Source of the DNA: Psychrobacter sp. APC 3281
Lineage (GTDB): Bacteria > Pseudomonadota > Gammaproteobacteria > Pseudomonadales > Moraxellaceae
Assembly (NCBI RefSeq): GCF_030407815.1
Contig: NZ_JASDCS010000005.1
Span: 124,001 to 188,000 of the forward strand
Reading direction: 5' to 3'
DNA: 64,000 nt
Below the pieces are notes generated by a model. It had not been told where the DNA came from, did not search any database, and saw only the letters and a program-made list of their open reading frames with translations. Position numbers and translations under genes: made by a program. Below, one piece after another: positions 27,290-32,082 of the stretch. Positions within the stretch are counted from its first letter, which is position 1; each line of letters opens with the position of its first letter.

Positions 27290-27959
27290 TGTCAGCATTA
27301 TAAGCCTATCGTCTTAATTTAAGCTCGGTATTCTTGGGGTTAAATGTTTAGTATTTCTGATACCAGTATTAAGTAGGGTGATGCCAAACTATGGGCAATA
27401 GTAAACAAAAAAACGTAACCAAAGCGTCATGGCCAATAAAGTGCTTGTAAGTTATTGTTATTTAGATATATATTAATTTATGAAAATAATAAATTTCGTT
27501 AGTTTGAAAAAAACTTTCGTGATATTATAGCCGAGTTAAGCGCATCACCTCAATCAACGCCGTAGAGGTTTTTCTTACAGTGAATTAGCATCATCAAAGA
27601 TGACAGATTTGTGATTATTAGAGCGATTTTTCGGTTCAATAAGTTCAATAAGGCGATATTTGGTCATCACACTCCTTTCACTACTAACAAGAAGAAGGCA
27701 CTAATGCCGCTTAGCTTTTCGTTGTTGCCTTTGTATTGTTAACGTAGCCCGTTTAACAGTCGAACGACCTACTTAACCGTCTCCAGCCTATGCTGGATTT
27801 TTAGTTTTGTGATGGCGCCGTTTGGTCTTTTGATTATTGCTGTGAATATCCGTCAATAACCCCTATTTTTTGATAGCGGTTATGAGCAGTTATACAGGAC
27901 GATCAGACTTCCTAAAGCACCATTTATTATGGTTTTTAAACGATAGTTATGGAGTTATT
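27290..27959. other. Gene-free region upstream of putA
   Basis: AT-rich, no coding sequence supported. A possible promoter (TTGAAA at 27504, 16-bp spacer, TATAGC at 27526) would give a leader of over 400 nt. An in-frame upstream ATG at 27870 exists but lacks a ribosome binding site. Confidence 0.4.
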
Positions 27960-30900
27960 ATGAACCCAGTAGACCAGTTTACCCCGCAAGAGCCGATCTT
28001 GTTTAATCCTGTTGATATGCTGTCGCCTGAGTATCTCGCCCAGTCAGCAGAAGCGCTAAATAAGCGTATTTCGCCGCTATATAGCGCCGATGAAGAACGT
28101 TGGTTGTCTGAGTTATTGCCACTTGCCAAACCCAGTATAGAAGAACGCGATGCTGCTGCTGAGCAAACGCGCAAACTGGTCGAGCACGTACGTAATGATG
28201 GTAAAGCCGTCAAGATGGTTGATTCATTATTGCTGGAGTATAGCCTTGATACCCAAGAAGGTATCTTGCTAATGAGCTTGGCAGAAGCCTTGATTCGTGT
28301 GCCAGACAACTATACGGCTGATGCATTGATTCATGACAAAATGAGTGTGGCTGACTGGAAAAAGCACATTAAAAATGACAATGGCTTTATGGTCAATGCC
28401 TCTACTTGGGGCATGATGATGACTGGTCGCGTTGTCAGTATTGACAGCAGCACCACTGCATCAGGTTTCTTGGATCGCATGACTAAGAAGATGGGTGAGC
28501 CTGTCATTCGTAGTGCGATGCAAAAAGCCATGCGTATCATGGGCCATCAGTTTGTATTGGGCGAAACCATCGAAGACGCCAATAAAAACAGCCAGCCATA
28601 TCGTAATAGAGGCTATACCTATTCATTTGATATGTTGGGTGAAGCGGCGATCACGCATAAAGATGCTGAAAAATACTTCAACGACTATCTACATGCGATC
28701 AGAGCTACGGCGAACGTAAAAGTTAAAGAAGGCATGCCAAAGCCGTCAGTGTCTATCAAATTATCAGCACTGCATCCTCGCTATGAAGCCACGCAAGAAG
28801 CACAAGTAATGGGCTTATTGCGTCAGCGCTGCCTACTATTGATTGAAGCGGCACGTGAAGTCAATGTCGATATCAGTATTGATGCTGAAGAAGCAGATCG
28901 CCTTGAGATTTCTCTAAAACTGTTTGAGTCTTTGTACCGTGATAATTTAACGGCGGACTGGGATGGTTTAGGTATCGTTGTACAAGGGTACTCTAAACGC
29001 GCTATCGCTGTATTGGCATGGCTTGCTCGTTTGTCTACTGAAGTCGGTGATCGTATTCCAGTACGTCTAGTAAAAGGCGCTTACTGGGATACTGAGATCA
29101 AACTTGCTCAGCAAAAAGGTCTATCAGGCTATCCAGTTTGGACACGTAAAGAAGGTACGGATACTGCATATCTTGCTTGTGCGCGCTTCTTATTGTCAGA
29201 CCATCTGCGCGGGCTAATCTGGCCACAGTTTGCGACGCATAATGCGCATACACTGTCATCAATCATGACCATGAGTGCACATAGAGACTTTGAGTTCCAA
29301 CGTCTGCATGGTATGGGTGATGCGCTTTATGATCATATTTTGCAAGCTTATGAGATTCCTGTACGTATTTATGCGCCAGTAGGTGCACATAAGGACTTGC
29401 TACCGTACTTGGTACGCCGCTTGCTTGAGAACGGTGCCAACAGCTCGTTTGTTCATCAGTTGCTAGACAAGTCTTACCCAATCGAAAAGCTAACAGTGCA
29501 TCCATATGACAAGCTGCTTGGTAATGCAACATTGCACAATCCAGACATCCCGTTACCGTTAGAGATTTACGGTGAACGTCGTGCAAGTTTTGGCCCTAAT
29601 ATCTTTGTAGAGTCACAATGGCTACCGTTCAAGTCAGCTATTGATAGCCATCTACACAAAACATGGTCAGCAACCTCTATCATTAATGGTAAAGCTGTTG
29701 ATACTTACGAAGTAGATGGTCAAACGAATCAACTTGATACGCAAACTGTACTTGCGCCTTGGAACCATGAAGTTAGTGCTGGTAAAGTAACTTGTGCCAA
29801 CGCTGAAGTAGCTCGCCAAGCGATTGACGTTGCTGTTGCTGGTCAAGATGTATGGAAAAATGTACCAGCTGCTAAGCGTGCTGAGATATTACGCAAGATT
29901 GCTGAGCTATACGAAGAGAACTACGCTGAGCTAATGGCACTATGCCAAGTTGAAGCGGGTAAAACCATGCAAGATGGCATCGATGAAATCAAAGAAGCCG
30001 TTGATTTCTGTCGTTTCTACGCTGACGAAGCAGAGCGCCTAGATGATGTCGTGCATGAGTTTACAGACTTGGCTGGTAAGCAGTCTCGTCAAGTGTATAA
30101 AGCACGTGGCACTTTCGTTTGTATCAGTCCATGGAACTTCCCATTGGCTATCTATACGGGACAGATTGTAGCTGCACTTGCTGCAGGTAACACCGTAGTA
30201 GCGAAACCTGCTGAACAAACCAGTTTGGTAGCTCACTTTGGTGCCCAGTTGATGTATCAAGCGGGTATACCTGCAGAAGCATTGCAATTGGTCATTGGCG
30301 CAGGCGACGTAGGTGGTGCTTTGACGGCGGCTGACAATATCGCAGGGGTGATATTTACCGGTTCGACTCAAACAGCCCAACGTATCAACCAAAGCTTAAA
30401 TGATCATGCACAAACCAGTGGCGAGTTGCCGGTCTTTATCGCTGAGACTGGCGGTCAAAACGCAATGATCGTTGATTCAACAGCACTGCCAGAGCAAGTC
30501 GTTAGAGATGCGGTACTATCAGCATTTGGTTCAGCAGGTCAGCGTTGTTCAGCTTGTCGCATATTGTGTGTGCAAGAAGAGATGGCGGATGATTTAATCG
30601 AGCTATTGCAAGGTAATATGGCTGAGCTGTCTGTAGGTAATCCTCTATATGCTGCCACAGATGTAGGTCCAGTAATTGATGCAGATGCTAAGCATGGTTT
30701 AGAGGCGCACATCGAACGTATGAGTGCTGAGCCTACTGCTACTATCTTGGCACAGACACCAATGAGTGCCAGCTCAGTTGTCAGTCAAGAGAAGTCTACC
30801 TTTGTATTGCCAACCGCAATCGAAGTGAAGAGCATCGATGTGATCGGTGGTGAGCACTTTGGTCCAATTCTACACGTACTGCGTTACCAAGCACGTGATT

Positions 30901-31223
30901 TGAATAAGCTGATTGATGCCATTAACAACACAGGCTTCGGTTTGACGTTAGGTATCCATAGCCGTATCGAAAATACCGTTGAGCACATTGAGCGTCGTGC
31001 CTTTGTCGGTAACACTTACATCAACCGTAACCAAATCGGCGCGGTCGTAAACGTACAGCCATTCGGTGGTTGTGGTCTATCAGGTACTGGCCCTAAAGCT
31101 GGTGGCCCGCACTATGTCGCGCGTCTGATGCAACTTAGCTCAGAAACAGTCAACGCTGAACAGTCAGCTGCTCATATGACAGCGACCGAAACCCAAACTA
31201 CCACTCAAACAGAACTCGCATAA
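27960..31223 (+). CDS. putA: Bifunctional proline dehydrogenase / P5C dehydrogenase PutA (catalytic core)
   Basis: 1087 aa from the ATG at 27960, chosen because GGAG lies five bases before it; the frame is open to 27870. It oxidises proline to glutamate. The FAD-dependent proline dehydrogenase barrel occupies roughly residues 50-530 (DAEEADRLEISL, RLVKGAYWDTEIK, RIYAPVGAHKDLLPYLVRRL). The P5C dehydrogenase follows, with catalytic Glu in AETGGQNA and nucleophile Cys in GSAGQRCSACR. There is no N-terminal ribbon-helix-helix domain, so it should not autoregulate as E. coli PutA does. It ends with a Thr/Gln-rich tail; the ALDH-like C-terminal domain of type B PutA is missing here and encoded by the next gene. 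Confidence 0.95.
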   Translation: MNPVDQFTPQEPILFNPVDMLSPEYLAQSAEALNKRISPLYSADEERWLSELLPLAKPSIEERDAAAEQTRKLVEHVRNDGKAVKMVDSLLLEYSLDTQEGILLMSLAEALIRVPDNYTADALIHDKMSVADWKKHIKNDNGFMVNASTWGMMMTGRVVSIDSSTTASGFLDRMTKKMGEPVIRSAMQKAMRIMGHQFVLGETIEDANKNSQPYRNRGYTYSFDMLGEAAITHKDAEKYFNDYLHAIRATANVKVKEGMPKPSVSIKLSALHPRYEATQEAQVMGLLRQRCLLLIEAAREVNVDISIDAEEADRLEISLKLFESLYRDNLTADWDGLGIVVQGYSKRAIAVLAWLARLSTEVGDRIPVRLVKGAYWDTEIKLAQQKGLSGYPVWTRKEGTDTAYLACARFLLSDHLRGLIWPQFATHNAHTLSSIMTMSAHRDFEFQRLHGMGDALYDHILQAYEIPVRIYAPVGAHKDLLPYLVRRLLENGANSSFVHQLLDKSYPIEKLTVHPYDKLLGNATLHNPDIPLPLEIYGERRASFGPNIFVESQWLPFKSAIDSHLHKTWSATSIINGKAVDTYEVDGQTNQLDTQTVLAPWNHEVSAGKVTCANAEVARQAIDVAVAGQDVWKNVPAAKRAEILRKIAELYEENYAELMALCQVEAGKTMQDGIDEIKEAVDFCRFYADEAERLDDVVHEFTDLAGKQSRQVYKARGTFVCISPWNFPLAIYTGQIVAALAAGNTVVAKPAEQTSLVAHFGAQLMYQAGIPAEALQLVIGAGDVGGALTAADNIAGVIFTGSTQTAQRINQSLNDHAQTSGELPVFIAETGGQNAMIVDSTALPEQVVRDAVLSAFGSAGQRCSACRILCVQEEMADDLIELLQGNMAELSVGNPLYAATDVGPVIDADAKHGLEAHIERMSAEPTATILAQTPMSASSVVSQEKSTFVLPTAIEVKSIDVIGGEHFGPILHVLRYQARDLNKLIDAINNTGFGLTLGIHSRIENTVEHIERRAFVGNTYINRNQIGAVVNVQPFGGCGLSGTGPKAGGPHYVARLMQLSSETVNAEQSAAHMTATETQTTTQTELA

Positions 31224-31234
31224 GGAGTAGCAAC

Positions 31235-31927
31235 ATGGCGACTGAATTCAAAAAAAATCATGCCCAGGTTTGTGAATCTTGGCGACTACTTGGCGCGGTC
31301 AATCGCGCAACGTATCTACAAGCAGCCATTCCAAAACTGGCATTGCTCACTGGTGATGCCAATAAAGCAAAGCGTTTATTCAACCATTTGTTGAGCGCTG
31401 CGCCTAGCTTGGATGAGATGCATCGTATGACAGGGGCAACAGGCGAGTCCAATGACTTGTATGTGACTGGTCGTGGTAAGACGATGGTCATCGGTGGCGA
31501 AACTGCTAGAGCCATGGCAGTATTAGGTCAGCTTATCGCGGCACTCCTAACAGGTAATGAAGTTATATTGCATTGCCCAAGCCAAGATGAGATGTGTAAT
31601 GAAGCTGCTAAGATACTGCACGACACAGGTATCAGCGAAGATGTATTGAGTGTGGCTAACGATTCGCAAACAGTCACACTTTTATATATCGATCGTCTAG
31701 CACAGGTGGCTGTCTCTGGTAGCCGCAGCGAAGTGCAAGCCATCAGTCAAGAGCTTGCCAATACTGACGGTATTTTGACACAGGTTATCAGTGTCACTGA
31801 TATGGAAGGCTTGTCAGAAATGCTAACGCCTGATTATCTGCATCGTTTTGTCACTGAGCGAGTCAAGACTATCAATACCACAGCAATCGGTGGTAACGCG
31901 AGCTTGCTTGAGCTTGGTACAGAGTAG
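31235..31927 (+). CDS. Stand-alone homologue of the PutA type B C-terminal domain
   Basis: 230 aa. It aligns with the last ~200 residues of long PutA proteins: TGATGESNDLYVTGRGKTMV matches GPTGERNTWTLLPRERVL of E. coli PutA, LGQLIAALLTGNEVIL matches LAAVLAVGSQVLW, and the end VKTINTTAIGGNASLLELG matches LSVNTAAAGGNASLMTIG. In type B PutA this inactive ALDH-like domain caps the aldehyde dehydrogenase site and helps substrate channelling. Here it starts 11 bases after putA, in another frame, behind an AAGGAG ribosome binding site. It is therefore a genuine separate gene, not a simple frameshift artefact, and probably acts in trans on PutA. Confidence 0.82.
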   Translation: MATEFKKNHAQVCESWRLLGAVNRATYLQAAIPKLALLTGDANKAKRLFNHLLSAAPSLDEMHRMTGATGESNDLYVTGRGKTMVIGGETARAMAVLGQLIAALLTGNEVILHCPSQDEMCNEAAKILHDTGISEDVLSVANDSQTVTLLYIDRLAQVAVSGSRSEVQAISQELANTDGILTQVISVTDMEGLSEMLTPDYLHRFVTERVKTINTTAIGGNASLLELGTE

Positions 31928-32040
31928 AGTCAATGCATTAATTACGAATCCGCTTAGCCTTTATATCAATTCTCATAAAGGCTAAGCGGTGTTTGGTAAC
32001 GCTATAACTACCAAACTATTAACTGCATAAGATGTATAAG

Positions 32041-32082
32041 AAAAAACCGCTATCTGAGTAATTATCAGATAGCGGTTTTTTT
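32041..32082. terminator. Terminator between the putA operon and roxA
   Basis: Stem CCGCTATCTGA / TCAGATAGCGG (32047-32057 and 32065-32075), six A before and seven T after; bidirectional for the converging roxA gene. Confidence 0.95.

Follow-up and report, generated by a model that had tools for sequence, protein, structure and literature searches.

A separate gene behind a type A putA in Psychrobacter may encode the flap and lid of a two-subunit proline utilization A

The 64,000-nucleotide stretch of Psychrobacter sp. APC 3281 analysed here (the window; contig NZ_JASDCS010000005.1, positions 124,001 to 188,000) carries a gene for proline utilization A (PutA), whose product joins a proline dehydrogenase (PRODH) to an L-glutamate-gamma-semialdehyde (GSA) dehydrogenase of the aldehyde dehydrogenase (ALDH) family, and directly behind it a small gene whose product resembles part of an ALDH (Table 1). 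An earlier note on this DNA had described the small gene as having its own AAGGAG and a start in another frame, 11 bp past putA. Our coordinates agree, the spacing being 11 bp and the two frames different (27960 mod 3 = 0, 31235 mod 3 = 2).

Table 1. Features of the putA locus (positions in the window)
Feature	Position	Strand	Basis or detail
putA core of the type A lineage, 1087 aa, with PRODH and L-glutamate-gamma-semialdehyde dehydrogenase; flap motif and C-terminal tail both absent	27960..31223	+	ATG 27960, TAA 31221-31223
putA ribosome-binding site, GGAG	27951..27954	+	sequence
Degraded type A flap motif (GPTGESN..GRG) in the core, letters DDVVHEFTDLAGKQSRQVYKARGTF, core residues 695-719	30042..30116	+	alignment
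S/T/Q-rich C-terminal extension of the core, where the PutA tail would be	31128..31220	+	sequence
Small-gene ribosome-binding site, AAGGAG, overlapping the putA stop codon	31222..31227	+	sequence
Putative small PutA subunit, 230 aa, predicted ALDH NAD-binding/oligomerization fold, without catalytic domain	31235..31927	+	ATG 31235, stop 31925-31927
Subunit flap motif, residues 64-84, RMTGATGESNDLYVTGRGKTM	31424..31486	+	alignment
Subunit C-terminal tail (putative lid), residues 199-228, ending TERVKTINTTAIGGNASLLELG	31829..31918	+	alignment
Terminator-like stem of 18 pairs, with a T run behind it, downstream of the subunit gene	32040..32082	+	sequence scan

The core matched the PRODH and ALDH families of Pfam as well as the PutA model PRK11904 (1526 bits), and a single proline dehydrogenase match was obtained in the genome, whose small gene is identical to that of named Psychrobacter records. 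No ribbon-helix-helix (RHH) family was among the Pfam matches of the core, which begin with the N-terminal domain of PRODH at residue 36. The earlier note was therefore right that this DNA-binding domain is absent; as a peculiarity of the locus, however, the absence does not hold up, because the RHH domain is a feature of type C PutA only, according to the part of the source at hand (PMC5293562). The note had also matched the 230-aa product to the C-terminus of long PutA proteins. This is borne out by alignments to the end of the long PutA model PRK11809 (NCBIfam; positions 1150-1318, E 5.4e-13) and to residues 1081-1235 of the type B protein SmPutA (E about 9e-6), yet a better match was obtained with the ALDH domain and tail of the type A protein BjPutA (634-796 and 970-997, E 4e-16). 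The subunit is predicted to adopt the ALDH NAD-binding/oligomerization fold; in the model of the subunit alone, the predicted local distance difference test score (pLDDT) is <50 for residues 209-230, in the region of the C-terminal tail, and a co-fold of core and subunit, made from an alignment with few core rows (A9), reached a pLDDT of 39.5, too low for the model to be interpreted.

Two short elements are distributed in a complementary way over the two products. In the ALDH of type A PutA, a GPTGESN..GRG segment precedes the PWNFP strand, and near the end there is a tail, for example RFATERTRSINTTAVGGNATLL; we take the TGExN segment to be the flap of the known PutA structures. Both elements were scored in 111 cores, eight of them from Psychrobacter, by loose patterns that were written after inspection of the alignment, with proteins assigned to type A or to types B and C (B/C) by length (>1160 aa for B/C). 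All 38 type A proteins have flap and tail on the ALDH chain itself. In all 46 B/C proteins the ALDH is without the flap, and the fused C-terminal domain (CTD) has both flap and tail. The 27 cores that are followed by a separate small gene (split cores) have neither, and in a wider check of 157 cores of the split clade, many of them read in part, the flap was found in 0 of 156 and the tail in 0 of 157. Both elements are present in 160 of 160 subunits, although many of these are near-identical; three had first been found by a text filter that holds part of the motif, and were recovered again by similarity alone. The catalytic Cys and Glu are kept in 111 of 111 cores. Each architecture thus pairs one catalytic site with one flap and one tail, which come from the type A chain itself, from the CTD or from a separate protein.

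The lineage of the core was examined in a tree of the same 111 rows, from which the flap and tail columns had been removed. The tree, like the flap and tail count, leaves out two sequences that are cut short (L131, L132), the copy from the source genome itself (L158), one with an internal stop (L175), an ambiguous protein of 1118 aa with a short CTD and a deleted flap segment (L207) and 14 near-duplicate split cores. All 27 split cores form a single clade (98) within type A, and in a more careful tree of 48 of these rows the 15 split cores included again form one clade (99/95), whose successive starred sisters are type A rows. The nearest PutAs outside the clade are type A proteins of about 1060 aa (L152, L153 and L155, at 52-55% identity to the core), whereas the fused PutAs of other genera in the family, presumably Acinetobacter and Moraxella, reach 43-47%. 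The core in the window thus descends from type A PutA.

This position of the core bears directly on the reading of the earlier note, that the pair is a split type B PutA. On this view a stop codon, together with a new start codon, would have freed the fused CTD. The domain content of the pair does equal that of type B, the CTD regions of PRK11809 and SmPutA match the small protein, and fused PutAs are found in other genera of the family. Moreover, an ALDH/CTD domain tree at face value places the subunits with the B/C CTDs, which also speaks against the origin that we favour below; this tree, built from 69 of the 98 segments that were aligned out of 181, does not decide the matter, as its bootstrap support had not settled and many of the B/C CTD rows are long branches. 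Against fission, the core nests within type A with starred support, and an approximately unbiased (AU) test, with groups set by type and run once the first tree had been seen, rejected a group of split and B/C cores (p 3.6e-10). In addition, most B/C rows show a deletion of the flap segment in their ALDH; in the Psychrobacter core the letters are degraded, but the length, which a few B/C rows (for example L178 and L204) keep as well, is about that of type A. The tails of the subunits, too, are closer to type A tails than to those of B/C. The assignment to type B is not upheld, and fission of such a protein appears unlikely.

We consider it most likely, from sequence comparisons, that the subunit arose in place by partial duplication of a type A ALDH domain. 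For each of 19 subunit tails compared, the four closest tails were type A rows and none was B/C, with a sister type A row first in 10 of the 19. Among the PutAs scored against the subunit profile, the sister type A protein L152 came out highest (62.7 + 37.6 bits summed over two stretches), compared with 92.9 bits for L155, 91.5 bits for L162, which is no sister, and 89.7 bits for the best fused CTD, that of L178. It is this combination of type A tails as nearest relatives with the top score of L152 that favours partial duplication in place.

The separate small gene is conserved. Across the family, 249 genomes were searched; 91 of them belong to the genus, and in 90 of these the subunit has an open reading frame (ORF) of its own, 231-266 aa long. 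A smaller survey found a separate ORF in 36 of 36, the source genome included. The exception in the larger search (G156, listed as 100% complete) is without the subunit gene and also without a Pro_dh match. At 127 Psychrobacter loci, drawn from 66 named records and 61 genomes with overlapping species, the subunit ORF lies immediately 3' of putA, with a spacing of 11 bp in 111 of them. That the small gene is no chance reading frame is also indicated by ratios of nonsynonymous to synonymous substitution rates (dN/dS) of 0.024-0.086 in 11 of 12 pairs, the twelfth having no usable dS, and by the terminator-like stem downstream; since most dS values exceed 1, the ratios are rough.

A recent frameshift or an assembly error is ruled out by the agreement of 90 of 91 genomes of the genus. 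The earlier note had proposed a survey of Moraxellaceae, in which one continuous gene in related species would point to such an event. Elsewhere in the family, presumably in Acinetobacter and Moraxella, putA is indeed one continuous gene, but of a different PutA lineage, and so gives no pointer to a recent frameshift. A programmed frameshift that yields a fused protein is unlikely as well, because the intergenic gap falls in all three frames among 157 loci, with start codons after the gaps chosen by script and one choice (GTG after a gap of 73, at L111) doubtful. The notion of a separate gene for a CTD equivalent that would act in trans is retained, the gene being intact and conserved both in the genus and outside its family.

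The core has lost flap and tail, and the neighbouring gene has them; a lid subunit that acts in trans is therefore the simplest mechanism. We consider it quite probable that the gene pair specifies a single PutA of two subunits, the smaller of which is non-catalytic and provides flap and lid in trans. The 1087-aa core would supply both active sites, and the 230-aa subunit would pack on its ALDH domain, where the TGESN flap would close the substrate tunnel and the C-terminal GGN tail would serve as the lid. In type A dimers this task falls to the partner protomer, and in types B and C to the fused CTD. After the duplication, one ALDH copy would have lost the catalytic domain and retained flap and tail, while the original would have retained catalysis and lost flap and tail. 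A more far-reaching version has, in our judgement, about an even chance of being correct: that an obligately heteromeric PutA, whose activity depends on the subunit, evolved by complementary loss in the two ALDH copies, independently of types B and C (where the same division of labour was reached with a fusion, apparently more than once), and was spread between families by horizontal transfer, and that the core alone would leak Δ1-pyrroline-5-carboxylate (P5C)/GSA or have a weak aldehyde site.

Alternatively, the small protein could have a regulatory or chaperone-like role and bind PutA intermittently, for example to tune membrane association or channelling. Separate translation would permit unequal amounts of the two proteins, and PMC5293562 connects the CTD with functional switching. 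On the other hand, flap and tail are gone from every split core examined, which argues for a constant need for the subunit, and neither the strict adjacency of the genes nor their joint loss fits an occasional partner, so that we regard this possibility as quite improbable. Hardly credible is an independent P5C dehydrogenase, as the annotation of PutC in Vibrio campbellii has it: the predicted ALDH fold would agree, but the small protein is without the catalytic Cys and Glu of a P5C/GSA dehydrogenase, both of which the core retains, no subunit out of 160 contains the catalytic-Cys string GQ[RK]C, the segment linking Rossmann part and tail is absent and PWNFP is not kept. The string E[LTMV]GG does occur in two subunits (L234 and L235), where the alignment shows it as LLELGG in the tail, and the only PWN string among the subunits (L232) sits at an N-terminal tryptophan. 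The subunit is annotated as an 'aldehyde dehydrogenase family protein' and probably also as P5C dehydrogenase PutC, although the subunit family lacks the catalytic domain.

Split PutA is present across several Gammaproteobacteria, including Vibrionaceae. For 341 genomes of the order, a search profile of 25 subunits (A1) found standalone subunit ORFs in at least 33 (nine Psychrobacter and 24 in the families f205, f196 and f16); for a sample of 398 genomes across the phylum the figure is at least 16, of which 11 were new (families f217, f233 and f222). Thirty of the 35 further genomes were inspected, and in all 30 the ORF stands behind a tail-less putA core, at a spacing of -1 to 43 bp. In a plasmid collection 14 records matched, 11 of them from Vibrionaceae (Vibrio 5, Salinivibrio 4, Photobacterium 2); the other three, from A. 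baumannii, match at 27.5% identity and are presumably fused CTDs. The gene order in Salinivibrio proteolyticus is araC, putA, 'aldehyde dehydrogenase family protein' (WP_269598875.1, L260) and putP, and in Vibrio sp. THAF191d and Photobacterium sp. DA100 the small ORF immediately follows the core. The Psychrobacter pair groups with that of family f205 (L220-L224), away from the fused or type A PutAs of its own family, which suggests that the gene pair was probably transferred horizontally between families.

Among the plasmid matches was a record of V. campbellii, of a strain other than that of PMC3858670. In the part of that paper available, the three transcripts of a putBCP operon shifted in the same direction, and putB and putC are named as genes of a separate proline dehydrogenase and a separate P5C dehydrogenase (PutC, M892_27510). 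Judged by gene order and annotation, PutC is probably the same gene as the subunit, and the operon the same gene pair followed by putP. Public annotation, then, already holds the subunit gene under other names. In titles and the openings of abstracts we found no separate PutA CTD or lid subunit, in a literature sample whose coverage does not extend to the main structural papers on PutA.

The pair differs from each of the known PutA types. With type A (BjPutA, PDB 3HAZ) it shares the PRODH and ALDH core with its catalytic residues and without RHH, the lineage, the flap and tail sequences and, if our proposal holds, ALDH oligomerization in trans; in type A, however, flap and tail are on the catalytic chain and are given by an identical partner, whereas Psychrobacter would use a dedicated, degenerate subunit. 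As in type B (SmPutA, 5KF6, and RcPutA), a non-catalytic ALDH-like domain with flap and tail would serve one core, but in type B it is fused to a core of another lineage, whereas here it is encoded by a separate gene and the core does not group with B/C. The tail motif of the type C CTD is the same (the E. coli letters are from the earlier note, and fused CTD rows were aligned here), yet type C has a fused CTD and an N-terminal RHH domain, and the pair has neither. If correct, the proposal adds a further architecture beside types A, B and C, in which complementary loss made a heteromer of a homodimeric enzyme, and it also corrects the annotations PutC and 'aldehyde dehydrogenase family protein'. 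Since flap and lid would be on a separate protein, their roles in aldehyde oxidation and channelling could be tested by adding or omitting the subunit, with no need for truncation mutants.

The AU analysis, under the same settings, also rejected a grouping of B/C on its own (rows such as L178, L204, L251 and L190; p 3.1e-07), which suggests that the fused CTD architecture arose more than once. Ancestors resembling type A may have given rise to it on several occasions, the alternative being repeated loss or recombination. Two genomes of one family (G427, with L183 and L206, and G537, with L205 and L204) each have a type A PutA together with a CTD-bearing PutA of 1353-1355 aa.

As regards signals around the genes, promoter-like sites in the region show no excess over shuffled sequence (7 observed, 9.9 in shuffles), and terminator-like sites number 4, compared with 4.4 in shuffles, the stem at 32040-32082 being the longest of the four. 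The C-terminal extension of the core is 31 residues long in the window and varies from 7 to 38 residues in Psychrobacter, with a TQTELA end in 30 of the 59 cores read; its S/T/Q-rich shape is perhaps set by the overlapping ribosome-binding site.
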